Shown here piece after piece: positions 8,085 through 27,523 of a stretch of 64,000 bases of DNA. The position numbers and the translations under genes are program-made. The DNA is from Deltaproteobacteria bacterium (GTDB lineage Bacteria > Desulfobacterota > Deferrimicrobia > Deferrimicrobiales > Deferrimicrobiaceae), in NCBI GenBank assembly GCA_021815305.1, contig JAKAHC010000001.1:1-64000 (forward strand), written 5' to 3'. The notes beneath the pieces were generated by a model. It was given only the letters and a program-made list of their open reading frames with translations, did not search any database and was not told the DNA's origin. Numbering within the stretch: the stretch's first letter is position 1; each line of letters starts with the position of its first letter.

Positions 8085-9665
8085 TCAAATCTCTTCTCCT
8101 CCCGGAAGTTCCAGGGCGGGGATTGCCGGCAGCGCCTTTCCGACGATCCCCTGGATACCGCCGTACATCCTCGCCATGTTGACGATGGCCTTTGTGGACT
8201 GCCTTTCTCGCTTGGCCCATTGACGCTCTGTCGCCCTCTTTTCCGACTCGAGATCGTCCTTCATCTGCGTGAACGCCTCGATCACCCCTTGGACCGCATG
8301 GCGGAACTCGGCCCCTGAAAGATATTCGTACAGCATCTCCATCTTCTCGTTCTTGCCCACCACAGATGCGCGGGCTATGGCGACCTGAACCAGACCCCCG
8401 CGAAGGATGTACGCCATTCCCACGGCTGAAGCAAAGTCGCAAACCCATATGCCTCCGAGGTGCCCCACGTGGCGCAACCCCTCCGGCATGGCCTGCGAGA
8501 CGATCACCGCGATGTCTGCCTTCGCCTCCCGCTGGTCCTCCTTGAGTTTGTCCACCCATGCGTTATTCCAGTTCTTCGTCCTCTTGGATTCCCACAGGAT
8601 CTTCCCGCAGCTCTGGCCCCCCGGCGTGAAAACCTCCTGCATGCAGTCGGCACCCCGGACACCTTTGGAGATCTCGTTCAAAGCGTCGTGCGGGAACTCG
8701 GCGCAGAGCATTTTCTCCAGCTCGATTTCCTGGACCTCCCCTTGAGCCTGCTGGCTCCCCTGCTCAGCCCTGCGCTTTAGATCTTCGATCTGTTTGACCA
8801 AATCAGATATCTTATGGTCCTTTTCAGCTTCCCGAAGACGGTGCTCTTCGTCTTTCCGGGCAGCGATCTCGGAGGCAATACTTTTCCTCTCATCCTCGAT
8901 CTTTCTGGCAACCTCCAGATCAAGTTGCTCGGTACGGATCTCGAGATCCCTCTTGTCTTGGAGGAGTTTAAGTTCCCGGGCGGTAGCGGTCTTCAGTTTC
9001 TCGTCCTGCTCTCTCACCTGCTGTTGCAACATCTTAAGGGAAATTCCAAGCTCGCTTTTCGCTTTCTTGATCGCCTTCTCTTCGGCATCGGCAATCCTTA
9101 TCTTCGCCTGCTCTTCGAGCTCCTGCGCCCTCTTCCTTTGGGTCTCCTCCTGATCCCTCAGCGCGGCGACTTGGCTAGAAAGATCCGCAAGCTTATGTTC
9201 CCTCTCAACCTCCTTCAGCCGATGCTCCTCGTCCTTCCTTGACGAGACGGTCGCCACAATGGCCATCCTTTCCTTCTCCATCCTTCTGGCCACTTCCAAA
9301 TCAAGTTGGTCAGCACGGAGTTCGAGAGCCTTCTTCTCCTGGAGGAGGTTGAGCTCCCGGGCCGCGGACTCCTTCGCCCTATCCTGCTCTTTCTTAAGCT
9401 GTTGCCGAAGGTCGTCCATCGTGGCAGAGGTTTCGGCCATTATCTGTTCCCTGGCTTCAGCTTCCACCTCCGAAGCCCGAGTTTTAGCTTTTTCTTCAAG
9501 CTCCTGTACCTTCTCCCTGAAAACTTCTTCCTGCGCCTTCAGTCTTGAGTCCATATCAGACTTGTATTTCTTTGCGAGCTTCTCCTCTATTGAGTGAGTC
9601 AATGCCTGGGTAATTTCGATTTCTCTTCCGCAGTGAGGGCAGATAATGGACGGAGTGGGCATCAT
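8085..9665 (-). CDS. DUF2130 coiled-coil protein with candidate PD-(D/E)XK nuclease domain
   Basis: 526 residues from the ATG at 9665, which lies 31 bp after the DUF499 stop with GAGG just upstream; a longer frame would overlap that gene. Order: a CPHC zinc motif at 9-12, a long charged coiled coil (about 30-315), then the DUF2130 domain. In the latter, Asp340, Glu359-Ser-Lys361 (LWESKR) and Gln378 are spaced as in PD-(D/E)XK nucleases. The coiled coil contains a tandem duplication with a 127-residue period: residues 53-170 resemble 180-297 (both contain RKDEEHRL). Cotranscription with a methylase and a P-loop protein suggests an effector role in the same defence system. The DUF2130 family call is solid; nuclease activity is inference. 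Confidence 0.82.
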   Translation of the reverse strand: MMPTPSIICPHCGREIEITQALTHSIEEKLAKKYKSDMDSRLKAQEEVFREKVQELEEKAKTRASEVEAEAREQIMAETSATMDDLRQQLKKEQDRAKESAARELNLLQEKKALELRADQLDLEVARRMEKERMAIVATVSSRKDEEHRLKEVEREHKLADLSSQVAALRDQEETQRKRAQELEEQAKIRIADAEEKAIKKAKSELGISLKMLQQQVREQDEKLKTATARELKLLQDKRDLEIRTEQLDLEVARKIEDERKSIASEIAARKDEEHRLREAEKDHKISDLVKQIEDLKRRAEQGSQQAQGEVQEIELEKMLCAEFPHDALNEISKGVRGADCMQEVFTPGGQSCGKILWESKRTKNWNNAWVDKLKEDQREAKADIAVIVSQAMPEGLRHVGHLGGIWVCDFASAVGMAYILRGGLVQVAIARASVVGKNEKMEMLYEYLSGAEFRHAVQGVIEAFTQMKDDLESEKRATERQWAKRERQSTKAIVNMARMYGGIQGIVGKALPAIPALELPGGEEI

Positions 9666-9696
9666 GCACCTCAGATCGTATGACGTGATTGACGTT

Positions 9697-12600
9697 TTAT
9701 GGCCACTGAAATTCAAATCCATCCTTCAGTTCTTTCAGCAGCCTATTGATCTCCTTCGCCGTATCCTCCGACGGTCTTTCCTTGCCGTCACCCAGCTCGA
9801 TCTGGACCCGGAACTTCAGGGGTATGTTGAACTTCGCCTTCAACTCAAGGAGGTTCGGGATGATCTCTGCGAGATCCTGGATCTCAGATGGTTCAAGCTC
9901 CGCGTGGGCAACGAGGCACTTGGATGGTGTTGTGGGACCTATACCGCCTACGCCCGGTCGACCAGACGGCCCGGAAGCGACCTTCAGCTTGATCAACTGC
10001 GCCGCCGGGTAGTCGCAGGGCCAGTTGCCCGACGTACCGTCCAGTTCGGTAAAGCGGGCATTGATCGATGCCGTGATCACGTCCTTGATCGTCTTCCAGG
10101 GCAAGTTTTGGCCGAACTTCTGCGAAAGCGCGGTGGCGATGGATAGGGCTGTTGCAGTGCCATCAGACCAGCCATCGGGCAGGTTCTCCGGCAGTATCTC
10201 AGCAGCGGCGATCATGGGCGGCGGCTGACGAAGGATTGCCTTTGGTGTCAGTACGCCCGCCGGAATGGCTTCCGTGAGCACGCTGGCCGGGCCGCTCACG
10301 AGCCATAGCGCCCCGGCCTCAACGGCGGCCGTGATCGCCTTGGTGATGACCGCCGCGCTCGTCTTGGGAATGGAAACAGGCTCCATATATCCGTTGTGCT
10401 GGACTTGGACGACCGTGTTGCCGCCGAAGTAGTCGAGAACGGCCTGCACCGCGATCTCGTCGTCCCTCCACAGTTCGGGCAGGTTGCCGGTCAAAAGAAG
10501 TTGGTATGGCAATTCGCCCAGTTCGGCCACCTCCGGCAAAACCAATTCGAGGGCCGGATCGTTCATGGCGGCATCGTCGGAGCGCGTGCGCCACCACGTT
10601 CGTAATGAGCCATCGGGCCGCGTCAGTCGCAGCACGAACGCGCCTTGCTCGCAGCCATCGGCCAGCGTGTCCAGGATGGCTTGGGCCTTGAGCATCTTGG
10701 GCAGATGAGGCAGTTGCGCGAACGCGCCCGACAGATCCTTTACGCGGCGGCTTGTTTCGCCTTCGCGCCACAGGTTGTACGGGCCGTCCGGCAGCAACGC
10801 CTCCGCTGTGATCGAAGAATCCTGAACGCGCGAGCGCGAGTCATTTTTGATGATGTTGAAATGCGGCTCGTCCGTGACATTGATCTTGAAGGCCTGAACT
10901 TCGTCCTTCTCAGAAACGGTCACGACGATGCAATACGCCTGCTTGACGGCTTCCGGTACGCGACCCCTTGCCTTGTCGATATTGATGGCCAGCGTCTGCA
11001 TACGCGCGACGTCGACATCGCCGCCTTTTTCCTGCTCCTTCAGGTCGGCGCGCACCTGCTCCCACGCCAGGTAATCGCGGACGCGCGCTGAAGCGACCTC
11101 CATGCCATCCTTGGAGGGTGCCAACAGAAGCACGGCATTTCGGTAGACGCGCGGTTTCTCCGGGCCGGTGGTTTCGTCCAGATATCGCTTGGCTTCGGGG
11201 CTCGGCTTGCCGGAATCCGACGCCGCGCCCGGTGCCAGTACGGCAAAGTGAAACTGGCCGTCGTCCTCAATATCGCGAGGGCGAACGGGCAGCGTATGGA
11301 CGCGCACACCGGCGGCCGACGCTCCGGCCGTGAGGGACTTCACCTTGCCGATTTCATCCAGCAGGCGGGCCCGCACCACGTCGTCGGAGACACGGCCCGC
11401 TGCAACCGCGTGCATCTGCGTGAGATTCGGCCGGTTGCCTAGGCGCCACATGCCGGGCAACTGGTTGTCGCCCACGGCCGTGTACTGGTCATCCAGCCAG
11501 AAACTCGCCTGCGCCCAGCGATTGAGACCCTTCTCCAACTCGATCCGGTCGGTACGGGCAGCGCCCAACAGAACGAGAAGATCGCGGGACCGCGCGCTCT
11601 GACCGATGGGCTGCGAATGGAGGAACGTACCAACGATGGCCTGCTCGACTTCCCGGAACCGCAGACCTACGGAATCGCGCTGGATGTCTCGGGCCCGTCC
11701 AAATTCGCCTTCGATGATGCCCGTCCAGGCAGGTCTCTTCCCCTCGTTCTCCTCAGTATCGGCCACCGTCACAAGTTCGCGCAGGGCTTCGGACATACCG
11801 CCCCGCCCAGGTGCGTTCAAAAGAACGCCGGGCCCCACCAGAGGTGCCGTGTCCCATTTCTCGGCCTCGCGTAGCGCCAGCGCAAACGTGCGCAGGACGC
11901 CTCTCGCCTTCTGGAAGCGATCCAACTGGGTCCACTTGGTGTAGAAGACCTCCGTCAGGTCCGGATGGAACGGATAGCTCTTGAGATAGCGTTCCTCGGC
12001 GTCCGCACCCTGTTTTTTTGTCTGCTCGTCGATGTCGAAGATGCCCTTGAGCGCCGCCTGAACGTGCGGCCGAAATGCGTTTCGATCCTTGATAGATTCC
12101 GGCGTAAAGAAGCGTCGCCTAAGCAATTCGGCCACGTCCTCCTTCACCACGGGCTCCACCGCCTCCTCACGCTGGCGCTGGAAGATGTCGTAGAGCTCTC
12201 CCTGAAGCTGGCGGCCGAAGCTGTCGCCCTTGGCCGGATCGCTGGCCAGGAGCGACGCCACGACGCAGCAGCGGTCCACCTTGGTGGCGGCCTGTGTCAG
12301 GTATTGGAAGAAATTGATGATGCGAACCTTCCACTTGGGGTCCGCCGCCACCTTCTCGCGGACATACATCAACACTTCGTCGACTAGGATCAGGACGCCA
12401 AGGCCATCCTTGACGGGCAGCTCCAGCATCGTTGTCAGCAGGTTCTCGGCCGGAGCGCTGTCGCGTTCCTCGGCCTTATTGTCGGCGTGCAGAATCTTCA
12501 ACCCCTCGTCGCCGGCGAGCTGGTAGGCCAGTACGCTCCAGGGCTGCTTGAGCGTGCGGACCTTACCGCCAGGCGAGCGCACCTCCATGCCTTTCTCGAC

Positions 12601-13020
12601 GTCCAACTTGTCGAAGCAGAGCCCGGCAATGCGCGCCTTGGGAGGCGTCTGCCCGATGGCCTCGATGAACTCGGCCACGGCGGGCAACTTGGGCAGGTTG
12701 GCCGGATCGGTCACCAGATGCAGTAGTGTAATCAAGGTGTGGGTCTTGCCGCCACCGTAGGTCAGCTCGAGCTGGCGCACAGCCTTATCGTTCTTACCCG
12801 CCACGCGCAGCACCACGTCCCGCACCAACTGGCGCAGGTTGTACGTCGGGAAAGTGAGTGCGAAGAACTTTTCCGGGTCCTCGTAGACTGGCCGCTTGCC
12901 GCTCTGCATGAGGACCTCGTAGAGGTCGGCGGCGAACATGTGGAGCGGGAGCTCCCCCGAGCGCAAATCCTCCCGCAGATTTACGACTTCGTGCCAGCAC
13001 TTCCAAGGTAACTTTGCCAT
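9697..13020 (-). CDS. DUF499 P-loop ATPase, phage-defence associated
   Basis: 1107-residue protein of the DUF499 family. The N-terminal P-loop is TYGGGKTHT at about 87-95, the glycine-rich form typical of DUF499, and a Walker B-like strand VLILVDEV follows in the first quarter. The family is large, mostly predicted to be cytoplasmic ATPases, and is repeatedly found next to DUF1156 methylases in defence loci. It is encoded 32 bp downstream of the DUF1156 gene and 31 bp upstream of the DUF2130 gene, on the same strand and at similarly high GC. Its molecular job is not established; a motor or remodelling role linked to DNA recognition by the methylase partner is a reasonable guess. Confidence 0.85.
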   Translation of the reverse strand: MAKLPWKCWHEVVNLREDLRSGELPLHMFAADLYEVLMQSGKRPVYEDPEKFFALTFPTYNLRQLVRDVVLRVAGKNDKAVRQLELTYGGGKTHTLITLLHLVTDPANLPKLPAVAEFIEAIGQTPPKARIAGLCFDKLDVEKGMEVRSPGGKVRTLKQPWSVLAYQLAGDEGLKILHADNKAEERDSAPAENLLTTMLELPVKDGLGVLILVDEVLMYVREKVAADPKWKVRIINFFQYLTQAATKVDRCCVVASLLASDPAKGDSFGRQLQGELYDIFQRQREEAVEPVVKEDVAELLRRRFFTPESIKDRNAFRPHVQAALKGIFDIDEQTKKQGADAEERYLKSYPFHPDLTEVFYTKWTQLDRFQKARGVLRTFALALREAEKWDTAPLVGPGVLLNAPGRGGMSEALRELVTVADTEENEGKRPAWTGIIEGEFGRARDIQRDSVGLRFREVEQAIVGTFLHSQPIGQSARSRDLLVLLGAARTDRIELEKGLNRWAQASFWLDDQYTAVGDNQLPGMWRLGNRPNLTQMHAVAAGRVSDDVVRARLLDEIGKVKSLTAGASAAGVRVHTLPVRPRDIEDDGQFHFAVLAPGAASDSGKPSPEAKRYLDETTGPEKPRVYRNAVLLLAPSKDGMEVASARVRDYLAWEQVRADLKEQEKGGDVDVARMQTLAINIDKARGRVPEAVKQAYCIVVTVSEKDEVQAFKINVTDEPHFNIIKNDSRSRVQDSSITAEALLPDGPYNLWREGETSRRVKDLSGAFAQLPHLPKMLKAQAILDTLADGCEQGAFVLRLTRPDGSLRTWWRTRSDDAAMNDPALELVLPEVAELGELPYQLLLTGNLPELWRDDEIAVQAVLDYFGGNTVVQVQHNGYMEPVSIPKTSAAVITKAITAAVEAGALWLVSGPASVLTEAIPAGVLTPKAILRQPPPMIAAAEILPENLPDGWSDGTATALSIATALSQKFGQNLPWKTIKDVITASINARFTELDGTSGNWPCDYPAAQLIKLKVASGPSGRPGVGGIGPTTPSKCLVAHAELEPSEIQDLAEIIPNLLELKAKFNIPLKFRVQIELGDGKERPSEDTAKEINRLLKELKDGFEFQWP

Positions 13021-13052: not shown

Positions 13053-16000
13053 TTAATTCCCCTCATCGAATGCCAGCGTTGTCTGAGGCGTTGCGCCCTT
13101 GGCCTGAACGTGGTTGCTGAGCGATTCCAGGATCTGGAGTTCCTGAGAACCGGCATCCTTGCGAGAAAGCTCGATGAGCGACTGCAGAAGCCGCTTGAAG
13201 AGTTCCTGCCGCCGCAGGCCGTGCTCGTCTAGGTATTCGTCCACCTTCAGCACGTCCGCCGCGCGCCAGAGATGCATCAGCCGGTGGATTCGGTCGATGA
13301 GCGGTACAGGCTGGCCACCGGGGGCCTCGTAGCCCATGCTCTTGTGCTTGCGTTGTGCCCAGGTCTTGAGCTTCACCTTGCTGCCGGAATCCGAGGCGCT
13401 GTCCAGATCGGCCTCGGCATCCGGGTCGGCATCCTCATTCTCCTCGTCCTCATCCTGGCTGCCACTGCTGCCGCCGGTGCGGACCAAAATGTCCCATGAG
13501 GCCTCCAACTCACGGTCGGAAAGATCGCAGGCCGTAGCGTAGAGGATGCACGCGCCGGAGGGTGCCTCCTCTAGACCAAAGTCATGGCGGTGGAGCAGGT
13601 AGTAGGCCGTCGGGGCGTCCATGCGGTCGGCGGCCGCGAGATCCGCGCCTTCCCGATCGCCGGCCAGCACCTGGCCAACCACGAAGTCCACCACCATGCG
13701 GCGAACCTGGGAGAGGAACTCGCCGACCTCCATGGTCTTGCCGGGGTCGTTGGCCTTCTTCACCACGGGGTGCTTGCTGTAGGCCTCCAACGCCGGGCCG
13801 GTGGCGGCCCAGACGAAGTCGGGGCCTCGAATCCCCGCGTCCCAGAACTCGCGCAAACTCGTGGCGATGTTCACCCGCATTTCTTCCAGTACCTTGTTAT
13901 CCCAGCCCGGGCGGGCTGTTGCGGGACGCTTTTTACAGACGAGCCAGACGGAGGACGATAAAGCTGCGCCGTTGATGGCAACCGCACGAGTAGTTCGTTC
14001 GGTTTGGATCGGCCAACTTCCGTCGACGACAAACCCGGATGCGATTATGGCGGAGACCAAGGTCTCCCACGCATTTGGATGCTTGTGGGCAAAGACAACA
14101 ACGAAATGGCCTCTGTCGACCAGCAGATCAAAGCAACAGCTAAAGACCTTCCTCATCCCATCTTCATATGCAGTTCTTGAAGCCACAGAGTTTCCATCGA
14201 AACGGGACCGATCATCTATGAGCTCCCCGTCTTCGGAGTCGTGATCCCACTTTGGCCCGATCGGTGACTTGAAAGCACTCGCAGTGTCTGGAGACAGATC
14301 ACTTACACTCCCTCGGAGCCAACAGTAGAACAAGTCCATCACATCCGAATAAGCAATCGCGTCATAGTAAGGTGGATCAGTCAGGATCAGGTCGTATGTT
14401 TCATGTTGACGAAGCGTCGTCGATGACTGGTGCCGCACATGAGGTACGGGCGACGACCGCGTTGCCAGAAGGCAATGCGAGATGACTAACGCCACCCAGT
14501 TTACAGCATTTCCGAAACTCCCAGTGAGGGTTGATAGTGTGTTCACCTCACTAAAGTCCCAGGACATTGGAAGTGCGAATCGCTGCAGTGTGTTGACGCT
14601 AAACTCGGCCCCAACTTGCCAGTGGCAGACGGTGGTCGAAGAATCCACGAGGCGGTCAACGCAGATGCTCATGTAAGCACCGATGGCCTCAGACCATGAC
14701 GCTTCGTAACCTAGCTTACGGCAGGTTTCTCTTGCCTCGCGGGCAACGACCGAAAAGTTCCCAAGCATTGCATATTGACGGCCGAGAAGTAGGCGCCGCC
14801 AAGAGTCAATGCCATAGAGAATGACGCGAAAGCCTGAGTTGCCTTCGACCCGCGAGAGGGGCAACATCGCTTTAAGGTGGCCCGTAGGGAGTTGCTCGAA
14901 AATGCGATCGACCCGTGCCTCATCTATCTCGGCAACGTCGAATTCGTGCTGAGTTGGCAGGCGATACTCCTTGCCGCTCTGACCGTCCACAACCACGGCG
15001 TTCATGACGGCGCCGAGCCGCCCAGCCCGGCCTTCGAGACGAATGTCCTCCATCGTCATGATGGTGTTGCAGCACGGGCACTGAGCTCCGGCCCGCGACA
15101 TTGTTCCTGCACCGATCCGCTTGTCGTGCTCCCTCTTCTGCGCCGCATTTCCACCCTTGATTGGCACGTAGTTCTCGATGCCGAAGATGACACCGGTACT
15201 ATCAAGGTTCGGCACCATGGTCAAAAGGACGCGCTTATTGGCCTTCTTACAGAGCCAGCGGGTCTTGAGGAGCGGTACCGTGGCACGGCAGTTCTTGCAG
15301 GTCACCATCCGCGCCCAGAGGTACGCCACCGTGGGTTTGGCAACCCAGCGGGGATTCTTCTTGTCGGCCAGATACTCCTCGCTTAACTCGGAGTTGAGCG
15401 CGGTGGTATCCGGGGCGCCGTCGTCTTCGAGCGGCACGAGTCGCATGGGCTGCTTCTCGTAAGCCTTTCCGAACTTGAGCGCCTCGAAGTCCGCGTAGGT
15501 GGGATAAAAACCCGCCAGCTCCCGCCGGGCGTTGGTCAGCACCCACTTGCCCCAAGCGCGCACGTGCCAGGCCAAGTCTGCCTCGGGCGCGCGTCCGGAG
15601 TCTGCCTTATCTTTCAGGAAGAGATCGTTCTCGAATTCCCGCGCCTGTTTCTTTGTGCGCTTGGTTTTCCCGACGAGATGCGGCTGGGCTTTGTAGAAGG
15701 CTGCCATGAAGTCCTCATCATCGAGGATGAAGTCGGGCAACGGGTGCGTTTTCCCCGCCAGTTTCTGCGGGTACTCGAGGGTGCATTTGAGGACGAACCA
15801 GGCGACGGGATTGATGTCCACCGCCGTGACCTCGCAGCCCAGGCGCATGGCCTCAAGTGGAATGGCCCCGCCACCCGCGAATGGGTCAAGCACTCTCGGT
15901 GCGCGGCCCCCGTACGACTTGCGGATTTCTTGTCGAAACCATTCCAGATCGTCGGCGTTCTCAGTCTCACGCTTCCAGTGCAGGATGCCGCCTTCGGTTT

Positions 16001-16292
16001 CATCCTTGATGCGCTCGACTGCCTGACCATTCGGCATCTTTTTCTTCTCAATTTTCTGGACCACCCTGCCACCGATCTTCTCACATAGCTTCTGGCGCTC
16101 CTCCGCCGTTCCGGGATCTGGCAAGAGCGTGGCAATCAACGCCGCCCGGCAAGCCGCCAGCGGTCGCCGAGCAGGCCAGATATGAAGCGTCGAAATATGC
16201 CCATGGCGCACATTTTTCTCGTGGACCGAGTCCAAGGAAGCCTGCTTTAGCGGAAATGCACGCTCGATAAGGCGGGGAAAATCAGCCATCAT
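13053..16292 (-). CDS. DUF1156 DNA adenine methyltransferase (DrmMI-like)
   Basis: 1079-residue N6-adenine DNA methylase. The DUF1156 start motif is at residues 8-45 (AFPLKQ...HIWPARRP). SAM-binding motif I is DPFAGGGAIP near 136-145, and the catalytic motif DPPY lies near residue 640. Two zinc-ribbon cysteine pairs (CKNC, CPCC) sit between them. Such enzymes modify host DNA in class 1 DISARM and related systems so that only unmodified phage DNA is attacked. Nucleotides about 13960-14960 (residues about 445-775, spanning DPPY) are far AT-richer than the flanks: hand-counted 60-base lines give 27 and 29 G+C, against 45 at 13621-13680. This suggests an exchanged specificity segment. The ATG at 16292 is directly followed by a second in-frame ATG. 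Confidence 0.88.
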   Translation of the reverse strand: MMADFPRLIERAFPLKQASLDSVHEKNVRHGHISTLHIWPARRPLAACRAALIATLLPDPGTAEERQKLCEKIGGRVVQKIEKKKMPNGQAVERIKDETEGGILHWKRETENADDLEWFRQEIRKSYGGRAPRVLDPFAGGGAIPLEAMRLGCEVTAVDINPVAWFVLKCTLEYPQKLAGKTHPLPDFILDDEDFMAAFYKAQPHLVGKTKRTKKQAREFENDLFLKDKADSGRAPEADLAWHVRAWGKWVLTNARRELAGFYPTYADFEALKFGKAYEKQPMRLVPLEDDGAPDTTALNSELSEEYLADKKNPRWVAKPTVAYLWARMVTCKNCRATVPLLKTRWLCKKANKRVLLTMVPNLDSTGVIFGIENYVPIKGGNAAQKREHDKRIGAGTMSRAGAQCPCCNTIMTMEDIRLEGRAGRLGAVMNAVVVDGQSGKEYRLPTQHEFDVAEIDEARVDRIFEQLPTGHLKAMLPLSRVEGNSGFRVILYGIDSWRRLLLGRQYAMLGNFSVVAREARETCRKLGYEASWSEAIGAYMSICVDRLVDSSTTVCHWQVGAEFSVNTLQRFALPMSWDFSEVNTLSTLTGSFGNAVNWVALVISHCLLATRSSPVPHVRHQSSTTLRQHETYDLILTDPPYYDAIAYSDVMDLFYCWLRGSVSDLSPDTASAFKSPIGPKWDHDSEDGELIDDRSRFDGNSVASRTAYEDGMRKVFSCCFDLLVDRGHFVVVFAHKHPNAWETLVSAIIASGFVVDGSWPIQTERTTRAVAINGAALSSSVWLVCKKRPATARPGWDNKVLEEMRVNIATSLREFWDAGIRGPDFVWAATGPALEAYSKHPVVKKANDPGKTMEVGEFLSQVRRMVVDFVVGQVLAGDREGADLAAADRMDAPTAYYLLHRHDFGLEEAPSGACILYATACDLSDRELEASWDILVRTGGSSGSQDEDEENEDADPDAEADLDSASDSGSKVKLKTWAQRKHKSMGYEAPGGQPVPLIDRIHRLMHLWRAADVLKVDEYLDEHGLRRQELFKRLLQSLIELSRKDAGSQELQILESLSNHVQAKGATPQTTLAFDEGN

Positions 16293-16304
16293 TCATACCT
16301 TTCG

Positions 16305-17243
16305 TCAGCCAATTCCCAACGCTTCATTCCCGAAGAACCAAATCCGCTTCCCTTTGGGTCCAATCATCAGAGCGTTGGTTGGCGGCGCGATCTGTACACG
16401 GATATGACCTTGTTTTCGAGTGGAAATGTAGCGGTAGTCAGTATCGCCAATTCGAATTCCCGCAACAGGAGCCCCGGAGTAACGAGAATCAACATGCTCA
16501 TCACGTGACATAACGGAAATCAACACGACGGATGGCCTGACCAGATTCAGGAGGTCCACCGAGTATCCAGAACTATGGCCATGATGCGGAGCGACCAGGA
16601 TATCCGCATTCGCCAAGAATGGCCGCCACACCCGCCCATAATCGCCCGTGTCATTGATGATCGCCTCCCATGCTTCCTTTTCGACATCGCCACAGATGAG
16701 AATGGAGTTGCCATACACGTCAATGCGGGTGACCACACTCGCATTGTTGACGCGAGCATTTGCATCTCCGCCCACTCGACGCGCCACGCCTACGGGCAGT
16801 GAAAGTTCAGAGATGCTCACGCCTCCATAGTCGGCGCTTAGCGTGGCTGGGCCGAAGTTCTGCTGGCGATGCCGAAGGAATCCACAAACCTTGGCCCAAG
16901 AGCCGCCTGCACAAGTGGACTCACAGTCGATCAGGTACGACTCGTCGGGATCGAGCGTGCGGAGAAACTGCGGGCTATACTTGAATAGATTTGCGTAGTC
17001 ATCCAAATGATCGCAATGGAGGTGACTGACCGTCGCCTTGTAGATGCTGAAAGTCGCTGGTATCGCCAATGCATCTGCCAACGGCGTCGAGATTTTCGGT
17101 CTGCTTACTGCTGTTGCCAACCAACTGATCGGCGAGAACCCGGTCGTGCATCCAGCATCGAAGATGCACCAACGACCATTCGGCAGATGAATCGCCGCAC
17201 ATTGTCCATGATCAACGTTGAACAGGTAAAAGCTCGCATTCAC
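16305..17243 (-). CDS. MBL-fold hydrolase (ComEC/RNase-like)
   Basis: 312-residue metallo-beta-lactamase-fold protein. The metal motif HxHxDH is complete as His74, His76, Asp78, His79 in SHLHCDHL. A downstream APHHGHSSGY motif supplies a further ligand, as in ComEC/Rec2-type MBL domains. There is no signal peptide or TM segment. The start is a GTG whose TGA overlap with the preceding membrane-protein gene (GTGA) implies translational coupling. An out-of-frame ATG nearby was rejected. Being locked between a membrane protein and a DNA methylase in a defence operon, it may be a nuclease or phosphodiesterase effector, but the substrate cannot be read from sequence. GC is lower than in the helicase and DUF499 genes. 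Confidence 0.82.
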   Translation of the reverse strand: MNASFYLFNVDHGQCAAIHLPNGRWCIFDAGCTTGFSPISWLATAVSRPKISTPLADALAIPATFSIYKATVSHLHCDHLDDYANLFKYSPQFLRTLDPDESYLIDCESTCAGGSWAKVCGFLRHRQQNFGPATLSADYGGVSISELSLPVGVARRVGGDANARVNNASVVTRIDVYGNSILICGDVEKEAWEAIINDTGDYGRVWRPFLANADILVAPHHGHSSGYSVDLLNLVRPSVVLISVMSRDEHVDSRYSGAPVAGIRIGDTDYRYISTRKQGHIRVQIAPPTNALMIGPKGKRIWFFGNEALGIG

Positions 17244-17893
17244 AGCGCACCCCCTTTAGCTCGCGGGAGAGCTAGGAACTGCACGTAGGTCTCAAGTGCG
17301 TAGAGCCTGGCAAAGCGGTGCATGCGAAAAACCGCGAGCCCGGTAGCGACTAGAAAGGCGATGGCGTATGGCCACACCTCCCAACCTCTTGCGACGAGAA
17401 TGATAATCATGGATATGATCGCCGCGGACGCGATTCCTCGAAACATGCCGTAGTTGCCGTTGAAGGTGTGGGCGCGGTCATCTCGTCCAGCAGCGCGCAC
17501 AGTTGCATAGATCTGGTGGAAGAGAGGATGCCACGACTTCGGCGAGACGTTGGGACCGAGTATGAAATTGTCAAACTCAAGGTCGATACGTATGCGTTCC
17601 TGGAGTTTTACTAGCTGGAGTTCCGACAGAAGGCCACCCTTGCCAGTTCGCGGCCAGTCGGACGGCCAGCCGCCGATGAGCTTCCACCAGGCGGACTCCA
17701 GCAGATTCCCCACAGCTTGGAGTAGATGGCCAGCAACGTAGGCCAAAAGCAGCGCGAGCCCAAAACCGCCCAGACTTACATTGAGTTTCTGGACCTCACC
17801 AAGATAGTCCGGCCAGATCAGCCCGGCAGCAAGCAGGATCACCGTACCAGGAGCAATCACACCAACAAACTCATAGAAGTCGAATTGTCTCAT
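17240..17893 (-). CDS. Four-TM membrane protein coupled to MBL hydrolase
   Basis: 217-residue membrane protein with four predicted TM helices at about 9-28, 40-62, 154-169 and 174-190, and a soluble loop of about 90 residues between helices 2 and 3. I recognise no named family. The ATG at 17893 sits 2 bp after the TGA of the helicase gene, and its own TGA overlaps the GTG of the MBL gene. A longer in-frame extension inside the helicase gene was rejected because the true N-terminus (MRQFDFYEF) leads straight into TM1. Small TM proteins in defence operons often act as membrane-disrupting effectors or anchors. Here the pairing with a hydrolase suggests a membrane-tethered enzyme or a two-part effector; this is inference. 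Confidence 0.75.
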   Translation of the reverse strand: MRQFDFYEFVGVIAPGTVILLAAGLIWPDYLGEVQKLNVSLGGFGLALLLAYVAGHLLQAVGNLLESAWWKLIGGWPSDWPRTGKGGLLSELQLVKLQERIRIDLEFDNFILGPNVSPKSWHPLFHQIYATVRAAGRDDRAHTFNGNYGMFRGIASAAIISMIIILVARGWEVWPYAIAFLVATGLAVFRMHRFARLYALETYVQFLALPRAKGGAL

Positions 17894-17895
17894 CC

Positions 17896-20800
17896 TCACA
17901 CCTCCCCGACTTCCATGACCTGCGCGTGCGCGATTCGCACGCCACCGAGTTCCCGCACCGTTTCCACAACCTGCGTCTTGGTGAAGGGCCGGACCAGGAG
18001 CTTCTCGAATGGGTCCTGAACGCGGACCATCTGCGGAGAGGGTGCAGCGCAGTGATAGACGACATAGAGCCAATAGTCGGCGCGCAGGTTACAAGCGCGA
18101 GCCCACTCGTTGTCGGTAACCTCGATTTCTCCCGTATTGGCACGGCCTTTGACCTCGATACAGCGCCGTTCGTTGCCCGGACGAATGGAGAGCACGTCGA
18201 AGCCGGGGTGGTCGGGCAGCCCGGCGGCGCGAGCCAGCTCGGGCGCATGGACGAAGCGGACCTTGGCGCCGGCCGCCTCCTCGAAGGCGCGCACCAGGTC
18301 CATGGCGATCTGTTCGATTTCGGCCTGATGCCGATCAAGGTCGGCCGGTTCGGTAGACGGAACGACCAGCGCGTGGGCGATGAATACCACCTCTCCGGGC
18401 ACGATCAACTCCGGTTCGCGGCGAAGTATCGCAAGGGCTTTGTCGCGGCGCTGGGACAAGGCGCGTTGCTGCTCTTTAATCTCCGACAGGTGCTGGGCGG
18501 CCGCTTTGTTCCCTTCGCGGGCCTTCTGCGAGAGCTTGGCGCGGGCGATGGCCAGCTCGGCCTCCTGGAAGTCGAAACCACGCTTAATAAAGTTCTCGCG
18601 TTCGATTGCCGTGTTGAGCAGGCGTGTTCTACGATCCACCGCCATGGTGCGCGCAACGCGCTCAGCGAGATAAGCCTGGGCCAGCTGGCGATGCTGTTTG
18701 GCGACCACCGCCAGACGTTGGGCATCGGGCGGCAACCCGTGCCCGCCGCGTAACAGAAGGAGATGTTCGACGGGACAGACGGAGACCTCCGCGCCCTCGG
18801 ATTGACGGACCCCTACAAGGCGACACTCCTCGGTCTCTTCCTGACATAGCTCGTCGATTTCGGAGTCGCCTTTACGGATCACGGTGAGCCGCGCCAAGTG
18901 GAAGATGTAGGGATTCTTGGCCGTGGGATCGACGAACACGGCGCCGCGAAGGGCATCTTTGCCGAGTTGGTTGCGGATCAGCTCGCGAAAGCGTTCGAAC
19001 AGCGGTTCTCCCGGATGCATCCAGACGCAGGCCTGGCTGTCTTCGGGGCGCACCACCGACAGAGATGTACGCTGATGAGGAGGATAGATCTCGAGCGCGG
19101 CCAGGAGCGGGTCAACCGCGCCTTTCCTCGCCGGTTGCAGGGCGAACACGTCGCCCAGATCGCCATCGACTTCGATGCCGACAAGCGGCGCGGCGGATGA
19201 GATGAAGCGACGGACGTAACCGGGAAGGAGGCGAAAGAAGACCTCCTGCTCGATGCTTTCGCGCAGGCGCGGCAGTTCCTTCTTCACGTCGCCGCCGTCG
19301 CCATAGAGACGGCGCTCGCGCTCCGCAAGCGCCTGCACCTGCTCCTTCGTCAGGCGGCCGTCGAGTTCCCGCGCGATGGCTTCGGGGTCGCCGAGCATCG
19401 CCATCTCCATGTACTTCTTGATGGACACGTCGGCGAAGATGCGGCCGATGCTGTCGTAGACCTTGTCGCTCTTGAGCTGCTTGCGGATTTTTTCGAGCTT
19501 GTCGAGGAGCGTCTTCAGGACCCGGCCTTCGCGGGTCGAGGGCGCGACGAGGTTCAGGATGATGACCGGATCGTGCTTCTGACCGTAGCGGTGGATTCGG
19601 CCCATGCGCTGTTCCAGGCGGGCCGGATTCCAGGGAACGTCGTAGTTGATCATGATCCAACAGAACTGAAGGTTGATCCCCTCGGCCGCAGCGTCGGTGC
19701 AGATCATGAAGCGCGCGCCACCTTCGCCACAGGGCTTGCGGAAGCGCTCGACCTGCTCCTGGCGTTCGGTGTAGTGCATGCCGCCGTGGATCATGGCGAT
19801 CTGGCCGGTGTAGCCCATGCCGCCGAGGCGGCGCACAAGGAAGTCCAGCGTGTCCCTGTGCTCCGTGAAGACGATCAATTTCTCGCCCGCGTACTTGGGA
19901 TCGGTGATGACGGCGCGCAGCTTGTCGAACTTCGACTCGTGCCCCGCTTCGTAGATTCGTTGGGCAAGGTCACGCAGCTGCTCTACCTGCTTCCGTTCGG
20001 CCACAAGATCGGCGAGCGATGCGGCGATGACGCCTTGCAGGAGTTTGTCTTCGGCAACCTCGTTCTCTTCCCGGCCATCCTCCGTGCCCTCATCGTCCGC
20101 CGTCTTGGTTTCCAAGACGTCGTCGTCTTCGGTGATTCGCTTCTGGAGCATCAGCAATTGCTCCATCGTGATCCGACCGGCCTGAACGTCATCAATCACT
20201 GTGCCGAGCTTCTCGATGCGGCGTTCGAAGGAACAAAGCAGGGCGTAGGTGGAACTGGCCAAGCGACGTTGGAAGACGCCCATGGCCAAGCACGCGGCCG
20301 ATTGGTTCAGAAGCTTGGCCTTGTTGTAGACGTGCTGGAGGTACTCTGTCGTTTCATCGTAGAGCCGTTGCTCGCTCACATTGCCCTGGGTCAGATCGTA
20401 GGCAAGGGTATCGGCGATGCGGCGCGGATAGAGCGGCTCGCCGGTCAGTTTAACCATCTCTTCCTTAATACGCCGGATGAAGTACTGCTTCCTGTGTTCG
20501 GAGGGAAACTGGTCGAAGGCCTCGACGGTGGTCAGCACCTCCGGCTCCAGCAATCGCCAAAGGGCGTAATACGGGTAGTCCTTTCCCATGTGGGGTGTCG
20601 CCGTCAGCAGAAGCAGATGATGCGCGTGCCATGGCAGCTGCCACGCCCGGTCGCCGGTGTGAACACCGGCAATCGCCTCAGCCAGGCGGTATCGATCCGT
20701 CTTGCGAATGCGGAAGTCGTTTCCCCTGTCGCACGAGAGTTTGTGGGCCTCGTCGAAGACCACGAGGTCGTAGGGTTCGACCTCTTTTTCCCGAAACCTG

Positions 20801-21522
20801 GCGAACATTCGGTCTCCGGCCAGTGTATCGACGCTCACGATGAGGCGGTTGCTCGAATGTCCCGTGAAGGGATTGTTGGTTCGCGCATCGCTGCCGCTGA
20901 CAATGTCGAACTGAAGGCTGAACAGGACCGAAAACTCGCGTTGCCAGTTGCCGACCAGACCGGCGGGCGGGACGATCAGGATCCGCTTGAGCAGACGGCG
21001 CGAAAGCATCTCGCGAATGTAGAGGCCTGTCATGATCGTCTTGCCCGCCCCCGCATCGTCGGCAAGCAGGTAGCGCAACCGAGGCTGCTTCAGCATGTGG
21101 TCGTAAACGGCAATGCGCTGGTGCGGCAGGGGATCGATGCTGGCGATTTCGGTGGCGAAGGCGGGATTGGCCAAGTGCCCGAAGGAAAGCCGCTCGCCTT
21201 CGACTAGCGCCTGCACTACCTCCGATGCTGCGGTGAAGTCCAGGACGGGCGGCTTGTCGGCGTATGGCGGGGGTTCGGGCTCCGCAACTCGGTCAGCGTC
21301 CAGTTCGCCCGCCAACTTCAGGATCTGACTCCAAGACAACTGGGAGGGGCGGGATTTTCCGTTCTCCCACCGGTTGATCGTCGGAAACGAAACGCCAAGC
21401 TCTTGTGCCAAGGCGGCTTGCGTGAGCCCCAGCCGGGCCCGGAGGCGCTTTATCTTGGCGGGGTAATCCTCGGTAGGCAGGTGATCCGTAGTTCGTTTTC
21501 CCATCGATCCAGCGGCGCACAT
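17896..21522 (-). CDS. HTH-SNF2 helicase-DUF3883 fusion (DrmD-like)
   Basis: 1208 residues. Order: an XRE helix-turn-helix at about 22-70 (LTQAALAQELGVSFPTINRW), a SNF2 helicase with Walker A DDAGAGKT at 155-162 and DEAH at 257-260, a helicase C-terminal lobe with RMGRIHRYGQ, then a C-terminal DUF3883-type domain. In the last, an Asp in GFDVLS and a Glu-x-Lys in IEVKGR resemble a restriction-nuclease fold. SNF2 helicases paired with DUF1156 methylases are the core of class 1 DISARM (DrmD); the fused HTH is unusual and points to operon autoregulation. The start is ATG 21522, placed at the predicted transcription start. ATG 21504 is the alternative, with an 18-base leader. It is the first gene of the six-gene block. 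Confidence 0.88.
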   Translation of the reverse strand: MCAAGSMGKRTTDHLPTEDYPAKIKRLRARLGLTQAALAQELGVSFPTINRWENGKSRPSQLSWSQILKLAGELDADRVAEPEPPPYADKPPVLDFTAASEVVQALVEGERLSFGHLANPAFATEIASIDPLPHQRIAVYDHMLKQPRLRYLLADDAGAGKTIMTGLYIREMLSRRLLKRILIVPPAGLVGNWQREFSVLFSLQFDIVSGSDARTNNPFTGHSSNRLIVSVDTLAGDRMFARFREKEVEPYDLVVFDEAHKLSCDRGNDFRIRKTDRYRLAEAIAGVHTGDRAWQLPWHAHHLLLLTATPHMGKDYPYYALWRLLEPEVLTTVEAFDQFPSEHRKQYFIRRIKEEMVKLTGEPLYPRRIADTLAYDLTQGNVSEQRLYDETTEYLQHVYNKAKLLNQSAACLAMGVFQRRLASSTYALLCSFERRIEKLGTVIDDVQAGRITMEQLLMLQKRITEDDDVLETKTADDEGTEDGREENEVAEDKLLQGVIAASLADLVAERKQVEQLRDLAQRIYEAGHESKFDKLRAVITDPKYAGEKLIVFTEHRDTLDFLVRRLGGMGYTGQIAMIHGGMHYTERQEQVERFRKPCGEGGARFMICTDAAAEGINLQFCWIMINYDVPWNPARLEQRMGRIHRYGQKHDPVIILNLVAPSTREGRVLKTLLDKLEKIRKQLKSDKVYDSIGRIFADVSIKKYMEMAMLGDPEAIARELDGRLTKEQVQALAERERRLYGDGGDVKKELPRLRESIEQEVFFRLLPGYVRRFISSAAPLVGIEVDGDLGDVFALQPARKGAVDPLLAALEIYPPHQRTSLSVVRPEDSQACVWMHPGEPLFERFRELIRNQLGKDALRGAVFVDPTAKNPYIFHLARLTVIRKGDSEIDELCQEETEECRLVGVRQSEGAEVSVCPVEHLLLLRGGHGLPPDAQRLAVVAKQHRQLAQAYLAERVARTMAVDRRTRLLNTAIERENFIKRGFDFQEAELAIARAKLSQKAREGNKAAAQHLSEIKEQQRALSQRRDKALAILRREPELIVPGEVVFIAHALVVPSTEPADLDRHQAEIEQIAMDLVRAFEEAAGAKVRFVHAPELARAAGLPDHPGFDVLSIRPGNERRCIEVKGRANTGEIEVTDNEWARACNLRADYWLYVVYHCAAPSPQMVRVQDPFEKLLVRPFTKTQVVETVRELGGVRIAHAQVMEVGEV

Positions 21523-21528
21523 GAACGG

Positions 21529-21557
21529 AACATATCAGATGATATAGCCGCTGTCAA
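21529..21557 (-). promoter_or_regulatory. Promoter/operator of the helicase-methylase operon
   Basis: On the minus strand a perfect TTGACA (21552-21557) stands 17 bp from TATGTT (21529-21534). The inverted repeat ATATC-AGAT-GATAT (21532-21545) sits in the spacer and overlaps the -10. Six bases then lead to the ATG at 21522, so the transcript is probably leaderless or starts within a few bases of the ATG. The palindrome is well placed to be an operator; the HTH of the helicase encoded immediately downstream is the obvious candidate binder. Sequence elements are seen; binding is inferred. Confidence 0.65.
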
Positions 21558-21613
21558 TAGGTCACGCGATCTGACTACTCTTGCGGCGGCGACTACTGCA
21601 GGAATGACGGCAA

Positions 21614-25392: not shown

Positions 25393-25974
25393 CTACTTAC
25401 TCTTCAGAAGCCTCTGGAGGGCCGGGAACAAGTTTCGTAGAGTGTCCGCATCCAGTCCCTCTATTTGCTCGTGAAGCCAACTTTTCATTTCGCTTCCTGT
25501 GACGGGGTCGAGTGAGAGAAAGACGGGATCGTCTTCGAGATTCGTCGCAAGTGGAAGCCCAAAGTATTCACAGATCCGCCTCAACTTCGTCCTTGTTGGT
25601 CGCTGGGCGGAACTGCTCCACCTGGATACCGTCGTTACGTCGACTCCGAGCTCGGCGGCGAAATATTTTCTCTGTCCATGCGCCAAGCCTTCTATCAGGT
25701 GCCGGATGTTGGCAGTCAATACGTTGACCTTCTCTTTCGATAAGAGATTCAGAGTCCGCATGTCGTTGACGCCGATCTTGTATGCCTTTGCCATCGCGGA
25801 AATCTCTTTCGGCTGAAGATCAACGCCACCGCTGAGAATTTCCTGAGCACGACGGATGTCGCAACCAAGGAGATCCGTAAGCTTGGCGGCCCATTCTTCC
25901 CGTCGCTCACCTTCGCGCCAGAGCAGGTATCGAATGTTCAGTGTCAGGCTCTCCACGCCCCAATATTCCCACAC
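25393..25974 (-). CDS. Tandem-HTH regulator-like protein
   Basis: 193-residue protein with two XRE-like segments. One is at about 10-75 (degenerate) and a clearer one at about 85-145 containing YFAAELGVDVTTVSRW. The C-terminal 45 residues are acidic and helical. The start is a GTG at 25974; a second in-frame GTG at 25956 is an alternative, and no ATG is available. It is the first minus-strand gene after the divergent integrase, only 40 bp away, and precedes the Gabija-like pair. It may therefore regulate the integrase or the defence genes. I do not recognise a specific family. Confidence 0.65.
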   Translation of the reverse strand: MWEYWGVESLTLNIRYLLWREGERREEWAAKLTDLLGCDIRRAQEILSGGVDLQPKEISAMAKAYKIGVNDMRTLNLLSKEKVNVLTANIRHLIEGLAHGQRKYFAAELGVDVTTVSRWSSSAQRPTRTKLRRICEYFGLPLATNLEDDPVFLSLDPVTGSEMKSWLHEQIEGLDADTLRNLFPALQRLLKSK

Positions 25975-26014: not shown

Positions 26015-27523
26015 ATGCAATTACCCGTTGACAGAAAATTGCGTTATAAGTTAATATCGCCATATATGGAACAGCTTCATCGGCATTACGACAATATTAC
26101 GCATTTCATGCCTATACCGGCGGTATCCTTCGAATACGTTGCGGATGAAACTCCGCCAGCCGAGGCTCTTGATCTCTGGGCGTTACAGGGTTCTGCGGTG
26201 GTCCCGCATATAGCTCCGGAAGGAAATCCAACAGGGGGAGGAAAACTCTTTATGCTCGGCTCCGTTCGGACAAAGGAGAAATGCCCCGTGTGCGGCGGAG
26301 AATTCGAGGAGGTCCGGCATCCAAATCGAAGGCAGAAGATTCTGGACCTCGAATGCGCAGGGTGCCTCACGAATCCCAGGCGGTATTTCGTGGATGCCCG
26401 CGCATTCAAAGACTCGGCGGGTTCTCCGGGAAGGATCTTCACCGACAGCAACGGGAACGCCTTCGACTCGTTCGACTCCGCGATGCGAACGTTGGAGGCG
26501 ATGCGCCGAGAGGTGGACGAGCACCGCTTCGATTCGACCAGGTGGAAGAAGGACGCCCGGCAGAAACTGCTCCTCTCCGAGGTCTGCAAGGGATGGCTCG
26601 ATTCCCTCAAACGTGCAAACCCCGATGGCGATTACCGCCTGCACCAGGAGACCTGCTTGCGGCTCCACGTCCTCCCGGTACTCGGCGAGATGGATGTCCG
26701 CCACTTCCGTGGCTTCGACATCCAGAAGCTTCACAAGGCCCTTCTTGAAAAAGGGAGGGAACCGGACGGGACACCGAAAGAGGAGTTCCAACGCCGAAAA
26801 CCTGGCCCCGGCGAGGGGCCGCTATCGGCGAACTCGGTGAGGGACATCCTGAGGGGGTTCAAGTCCTGCCTCAAGTGGCTCCAGAAGCAAGAGGTGATCG
26901 AGCGGATTCCGACCTTTCCGTCGACCTCTCCCGTACCCCGGACAGACGTCCGGTGGCTCAACCCCGCTGATCAGGCGTCGGTGCTGGAGCACATTCCGGA
27001 ATACGCGAGGCTCCTGATCGAGACGATGATCGAAACCGGTGTCCGCCCGGGCTCCATGATCGCGGCGAAGGCGCGCGACCTCGAAGACGGCGGCATCCGG
27101 ATCGAGCGGGCCTTCACCCGCAAACGCATGCTCAAGGAAACCAAGACCGGAGTCACCTCGTGGAAAGCACTCTCCTCAAGTCTGTACGCCCGGCTCGTGG
27201 CAAGCACCCGCGACAAACTCCCCGACGCATGGCTCTTCACGAACTCGCAGGGAGGACCCTTCACGACCAACCTTGCCTCGGAAATCTGGAGGGACGCCGC
27301 GCGCGAGGCGAAAGTCAACGTCTGCCTATACGTCTCGATCCGGCACTCGCGGGTCTCACAAAAACGCCGCGACCTGGAGCGCAAAATGGCCGACGAGATG
27401 AGGCAGGAACTCGACCATGCCCGATTCGAGACTACCCGGAAGCACTACGCCCGGGACGAGAGGGATGCGTTCAGGAGGAGGAAGGATGGCACCGACGTGG
27501 CACCAAGGTCCGAAGACAAGTAA
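26015..27523 (+). CDS. Tyrosine integrase of the genomic island
   Basis: 502-residue tyrosine recombinase. An N-terminal C4 zinc motif (Cys90, Cys93, Cys114, Cys117) is followed by a core-binding domain (about 175-290) and a catalytic domain. Box-I Arg is in GVRPGSM, the box-II RH in SIRHSR, and the nucleophile Tyr is near 477 in RKHYARDE. The usual box-II histidine before the arginine is replaced (V-S-I-R-H), so activity may be altered. The first 100 bp are markedly AT-rich compared with the rest of the gene. It ends about 20 bp from the tRNA-Gly remnant and reads toward it, the classic position for an island integrase acting at a tRNA attachment site. Confidence 0.87.
   Translation: MQLPVDRKLRYKLISPYMEQLHRHYDNITHFMPIPAVSFEYVADETPPAEALDLWALQGSAVVPHIAPEGNPTGGGKLFMLGSVRTKEKCPVCGGEFEEVRHPNRRQKILDLECAGCLTNPRRYFVDARAFKDSAGSPGRIFTDSNGNAFDSFDSAMRTLEAMRREVDEHRFDSTRWKKDARQKLLLSEVCKGWLDSLKRANPDGDYRLHQETCLRLHVLPVLGEMDVRHFRGFDIQKLHKALLEKGREPDGTPKEEFQRRKPGPGEGPLSANSVRDILRGFKSCLKWLQKQEVIERIPTFPSTSPVPRTDVRWLNPADQASVLEHIPEYARLLIETMIETGVRPGSMIAAKARDLEDGGIRIERAFTRKRMLKETKTGVTSWKALSSSLYARLVASTRDKLPDAWLFTNSQGGPFTTNLASEIWRDAAREAKVNVCLYVSIRHSRVSQKRRDLERKMADEMRQELDHARFETTRKHYARDERDAFRRRKDGTDVAPRSEDK

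Follow-up and report, generated by a model that had tools for sequence, protein, structure and literature searches.

The helicase HmaA encoded in this stretch of DNA probably has two functions, one as a defence helicase and one as repressor of the operon that encodes it: the helix-turn-helix (HTH) domain fused to its N-terminus would act on a palindrome in the hmaA promoter, with a second contact at the motif ATCGYGTG. We put the probability of this reading, which is drawn from sequence comparisons, at about 0.8. Autorepression by the fused HTH is strongly supported by the conservation of the palindrome among orthologues, its covariation with the recognition helix, the second element and the occurrence of a single composite site, at hmaA.

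The hma operon and its promoter

The following features were assigned in the window, that is, the whole 64-kb stretch of DNA that was analysed.

21563..21570, minus strand: second element of the candidate operator, ATCGCGTG, 16 nt from the edge of the palindrome; the only copy in the window
21552..21557, minus strand: -35 element TTGACA, from the sequence; TTGAC is equally placed in 29 of 60 orthologues, starting 10-12 nt before the palindrome
21531..21546, no strand assigned: candidate operator palindrome, family 16-mer TATnnCA-NN-TGnnATA, here TATATCA-TC-TGATATG; from conservation in orthologues
21529..21534, minus strand: -10 element TATGTT, preceded by TG (extended -10); from the sequence and a sigma-70 scan
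21520..21522, minus strand: first possible start codon ATG, leaderless if used
21502..21504, minus strand: in-frame alternative start codon ATG (Met7), giving an 18-nt leader with a weak GGA upstream
17896..21522, minus strand: hmaA, encoding an HTH, an SNF2/SF2 helicase and a C-terminal NOV_C domain (PADLOC HmaA, 8e-151; Pfam)
21301..21477, minus strand: XRE/434-like HTH domain of HmaA, residues 16-74 (Pfam HTH_3/HTH_31; PDB 434 and P22 C2; structural model)
21382..21384, minus strand: codon for Pro47 in the recognition helix, at the presumed position of Gln29 of the 434 repressor; best covarying column, also used in the tree test
17240..17893, minus strand: accessory gene with weak Csx27/tm_4 matches, probably encoding a membrane protein
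16305..17243, minus strand: accessory gene PDC-M48B, with an HxHxDH metallo-beta-lactamase-like motif identified by eye
13053..16292, minus strand: hmaB, DUF1156 adenine methyltransferase (DUF1156, 6e-18; PADLOC HmaB, 3e-107)
9697..13020, minus strand: hmaC, DUF499 AAA+ ATPase (DUF499, 7e-19; PADLOC HmaC, 2e-74)

With HmaA, HmaB and HmaC all matched, the operon is, as judged from these profiles, an Hma system of the DUF499-centred, BREX-related kind. The HmaA protein has 1208 residues and, as the first-pass annotation had stated, carries an XRE domain at its N-terminus (Pfam HTH_3 at residues 24-69, 7e-13). SNF2 and Helicase_C domains are also present, as is a NOV_C domain at residues 1069-1163 (Pfam, 9.5e-16), which we take to belong to the PD-(D/E)XK clan. 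Among PDB sequences, the HTH matches the 434 repressor (E 6e-5) and the P22 C2 repressor (E 0.003). In a structural model of residues 16-422, the HTH is helical and confidently predicted, and a poorly ordered linker of low confidence separates it from the motor. No Pfam match to a Tudor domain was found in HmaA, in which the HTH occupies the N-terminus and is followed by the low-confidence linker. Within HmaB, residues 441-640 (window approximately 14373-14972) are hypervariable, with identity of about one third, and their flanks are well conserved, as expected of a specificity domain.

The membrane-protein and PDC-M48B genes between hmaA and hmaB (window 16305-17893) recur as a pair in L063 (9517-11017) and L070 (5395-6965). 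Since these two loci are diverged and only one of them has the HTH, the pair looks like a mobile module of Hma operons. Further downstream, hmaC and the next gene, which codes for a DUF2130 protein (8085-9722), share 26 bases (9697-9722), an overlap that suggests translational coupling and a longer operon. The whole belongs to a densely packed, minus-strand defence island (window 179-25974), whose members are a PIN protein (PDC-S70), an RmrA-like HTH-M78 protein, IetS, IetA, a PDC-S06 ATPase, the DUF2130 protein, HmaC, HmaB, the two accessory genes, HmaA, GajB, GajA and an XRE protein. A gene of the phage integrase family follows on the plus strand (26015-27523).

The hma promoter reads, on the minus strand, TTGACA, a 17-bp spacer, TATGTT, the six bases CCGTTC and the ATG at 21522, exactly where the first-pass annotation had placed it, and it is the only sigma-70-like site between 21400 and 21700 (mean in shuffles, 0.3). 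The same annotation described a palindrome covering the -10 element. The palindrome does overlap the TAT of this element (three of six bases) and the end of the spacer, but it does not cover the whole -10. Leaderless initiation, which had been thought to be implied, is not: the ATG at 21504 would provide a leader, and the orthologues mostly have leaders, their start codons lying mostly 23-76 nt past the palindrome, with a motif resembling a Shine-Dalgarno sequence in 24 of 53.

Conservation of the palindrome and covariation with the recognition helix

The sequence ATATCA-GA-TGATAT (21532-21545) occurs once in the 2.77-Mb genome. Taken by itself, the window palindrome is at chance level, because the window contains 37 similar inverted repeats (perfect 6-bp arms with a 2-nt loop). 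A chance origin thus holds for the single sequence; it is ruled out by the conservation in orthologues, which makes the palindrome highly significant. About 70 loci with close relatives of the window helicase were fetched by similarity to it; most are metagenome-assembled contigs, and their labels include Bacteroidetes, Deltaproteobacteria, Verrucomicrobia, Lentisphaerae, Planctomycetes, Latescibacterota, Elusimicrobia, Gemmatimonadota, Methylomirabilota and others. The ten core bases of TATnnCA-NN-TGnnATA were scored in the 250 bp upstream of the gene. At least nine were present upstream of 54 of 65 HTH-fused hmaA genes (ten in 37, nine in 17), so that the comparison of orthologous upstream regions, proposed as a check in the first-pass annotation, finds the palindrome conserved both in sequence and in its position in the promoter. 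In dinucleotide shuffles, all ten core bases were found in 0 of 1300 and at least nine in 13 of 1300, and at least nine were found in none of 703 gene-body pieces and upstream of none of 29 hmaA homologues lacking the HTH. Strict palindromes in the fetched loci lay upstream of the HTH-helicase gene in 41 of 41 cases. The forms found with HTH-fused genes are TATATCA-NN-TGATATA, TATAACA-NN-TGTTATA, TATCGCA-NN-TGCGATA and mixtures of these. Additional genomes of two phyla yielded few new loci, among them L195, which at 39% identity still has TATAGCA-GA-CGCTATA, and L188, which together with L049 and L078 belongs to the few HTH loci with no clear palindrome. Plasmids gave only weak matches or matches in the range of HTH-less homologues, and phages gave none. 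A locus labelled as a Methanomassiliicoccaceae archaeon (L075), which may be contamination, has an HTH-fused hmaA with TATGACA-AA-TGCTATA upstream and no TTGACA.

In the orthologues, TGnTATA of the right half-site and a T two bases further on together make up an extended -10 (TATAnT). As TTGAC also lies at a fixed distance, a protein on the palindrome would cover the core promoter. The conservation of the right half-site could in part reflect the promoter, and one might go further and regard the palindrome as nothing but an extended promoter TGnTATAnT with an incidental mirror half; the right half is an extended -10 at nearly all loci, and 6-bp palindromes are common by chance. This explanation is nevertheless extremely improbable. 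The left half-site TATnnCA, which RNA polymerase does not need, is conserved to nearly the same degree (56-58 of 60 at A2, T3 and C6), hmaA promoters of HTH-less loci have no palindrome, and the palindrome is also present in the archaeal metagenome-assembled genome (L075), where -35/-10 promoters are unexpected.

The palindrome also varies with the protein. Where residue 47 of HmaA is proline or valine, position 5 of the half-site is T in 16 of 19 loci, as against 5 of 39 where it is alanine (Fisher 1.7e-7, uncorrected for kinship). When all columns of the HTH and helicase were scored against the half-site T, residue 47 ranked first of 260 (z 10.5), and the second-best column, residue 56, likewise lies within the HTH. 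On the tree of the helicase region, about four of six independent pairs were concordant and none discordant (p about 0.125), too few pairs for significance. The window and its nearest relative on this tree, L010, illustrate the change: their helicase regions are 84% identical, and the window has P47 with TATATCA twice, L010 an alanine with TATAACA twice. By eye, we align residue 47 with Gln29 of the 434 repressor and Val33 of the P22 repressor, an equivalence that we presume to hold. We propose a one-residue specificity code in which proline or valine selects T, and alanine selects A or G. Pockets for the thymine methyl group formed by aliphatic side chains of the recognition helix are typical of phage repressors (PMC3317979).

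A different regulator, whether encoded by the host or, like the XRE protein at 25393-25974, by the island, could instead read the palindrome, leaving the HmaA HTH to target DNA only. The island does hold further XRE genes, and palindromes of this type are often bound by XRE proteins of other families. Yet the palindrome follows HTH-fused hmaA through many phyla and is absent beside HTH-less hmaA, it covaries with HmaA's own recognition helix, and the composite site described below is the sole such site in each genome, all of which makes a separate regulator highly improbable. The earlier proposal that the helicase represses its own operon therefore stands in so far as the fused HTH appears to read the palindrome and the gene to control itself, given the conservation, the linkage to the HTH, the single occurrence per genome and the covariation; repression as such is inferred from the overlap with the -10 element.

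The second element

An element that had gone unreported in the first-pass annotation, ATCGYGTG, accompanies the palindrome. With matches defined as at least six of eight bases, 31 loci carry it at a distance of exactly 16 nt, upstream of the palindrome in 23 and inverted and downstream in 8, and five loci of an early-branching group carry it downstream at 15 nt. If spacings of 15-17 nt are allowed, the element is present in 40 of 60 loci and missing from 20; at other spacings it is near zero. It lies on opposite sides of the palindrome in the window and in L010. Because the spacing stays fixed whichever flank of the symmetric palindrome the element occupies, we infer that the two parts are read by one complex. 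ATCGYGTG is most likely recognized by HmaA or by a conserved component of the Hma complex. When HmaA residues were compared with the presence or side of the element, the top columns lay in the helicase body and were confounded with phylogeny. The possibility that ATCGYGTG is a half-site of the same HTH was considered unlikely, as the element is unchanged whether the palindrome is of the T or the A type. Hma loci lacking the HTH are generally without ATCGYGTG; upstream copies in two of them, L070 (inside a small ORF, with no palindrome) and L016, are taken as chance.

The composite of element and palindrome was found in 3 of 297 genomes of relatives and in 21 of 39 genomes that carry the gene, as one copy per genome and at hmaA every time, with no hit for a reversed-pattern control. 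Being single and always at hmaA, it represents a site dedicated to this gene, not a member of a regulon. In IMG/VR, the composite pattern matched at least 80 stretches, which by our own estimate is of the order expected by chance for a 15-base pattern. One viral-classed contig (IMGVR_UViG_3300048930_001424; L148/L184) contains a real HTH-fused hmaA with a full composite operator, the element lying downstream, which suggests that this hmaA is carried by a mobile element.

With hmaB in the same operon, and with an asymmetric, adenine-containing sequence that fits a BREX-like N6 methyltransferase, ATCGYGTG might be the methylation site of HmaB, so that the promoter would sense self-methylation. 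We regard this as very unlikely. The block of HmaB resembling a target recognition domain (TRD; residues ~441-640) averages 38% identity among ATCGCGTG-sharing loci, compared with 77% for conserved blocks, and since it is so variable, the specificity of HmaB should differ while the element stays constant. Moreover, HTH-less Hma systems with a similar HmaB do not have ATCGYGTG. It is also unlikely, if somewhat less so, that HmaA on the operator activates transcription, or mainly parks or loads the motor or the Hma complex at a fixed site in the host, and does not repress. A composite whose asymmetric second element is able to sit on either side would agree with such a role, and an upstream element at about -45 would suit an activator, but a classical activator could not work from an element located downstream of the start site, and in the clear cases the palindrome extends into the core promoter. 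No activator is needed in any case, because the -35 and extended -10 elements are near consensus.

Proposed mechanism and relation to known systems

For repression by HmaA, we propose that a dimer of its 434-like HTH would bind TATnnCA-NN-TGnnATA, which includes the extended -10 element, and so shut RNA polymerase out of the hma promoter. About 28 bp (2.7 turns) from there, centre to centre, HmaA or the Hma complex would also recognize the sequence ATCGYGTG, and this additional contact might help the HTH dimer cooperatively at the level of the complex. As the site of the HTH dimer is symmetric, this contact could be made on either side. The outcome would be homeostatic autorepression, with the operon becoming derepressed whenever little HmaA is present, as on arrival in a new host, or when HmaA is drawn off, possibly by invading DNA. 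We speculate that DNA engagement by HmaA could in this way induce the operon. A fuller version, possible but doubtful, is that the 40-bp ATCGYGTG-N16-palindrome is read in either orientation by a single asymmetric Hma assembly, in which the motor or a partner subunit adds a sequence-specific contact to those of the HTH dimer. This assembly would park on the promoter and leave it for foreign DNA, so that infection would induce the operon.

The Hma system was named in the PADLOC survey (PMC8565338) and later put among the DUF499-centred BREX-related (BR) systems, as Type-1 (PMC12839542). Hma/Type-1 BR systems share with the present operon an SNF2 HmaA, a DUF1156 HmaB, a DUF499 HmaC and a C-terminal domain of the PD-(D/E)XK clan on the helicase (PMC8565338; PMC12839542), whereas the BR helicases described have an N-terminal TUDOR (Types 1 and 3) or HKD domain (Type 2) in place of the XRE HTH seen here (PMC12839542). 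The passages searched contain no mention of an XRE HTH, an operator or a repressor for Hma (PMC8565338; PMC12839542), and a report of a self-regulating, HTH-fused hmaA was not found in the open-access literature.

By analogy, the nearest worked precedent for HmaA autorepression is M.SsoII, also an enzyme of a restriction system whose N-terminal DNA-binding region controls transcription of that system by way of a separate site (PMC3978073, PMC6100179); binding to this regulatory site competes with catalysis (PMC6100179). M.SsoII is a cytosine methyltransferase with one regulatory site, whereas HmaA is a helicase with a palindrome and an element that changes sides at a fixed distance. The marks of a self-regulating enzyme found here are the HTH fused to HmaA, a candidate operator overlapping its own promoter in orthologues and a single composite per genome. 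HmaA resembles the 434 and P22 C2 repressors in its HTH sequence, in a palindromic operator on a promoter and in drawing specificity from the first residues of helix 3, but it shares only the HTH with them, which is fused to a motor, and has no C-terminal repressor domain. RptR (PMC12255303), BrxR (PMC9122601, PMC9122589) and CapW (PMC9122588) similarly control defence operons by binding promoter DNA; unlike HmaA, they are stand-alone regulators and not parts of the effector.

Taken together, these results bear on how BREX-like defence operons stay quiet yet ready. The known regulators are separate proteins, whereas in the HTH-fused Hma systems of many phyla this role appears to fall to the effector motor, acting through a defined 40-bp site. 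To test the proposed specificity code, short DNA and a 60-residue domain would suffice, and induction of the operon by engagement of foreign DNA is now directly testable.
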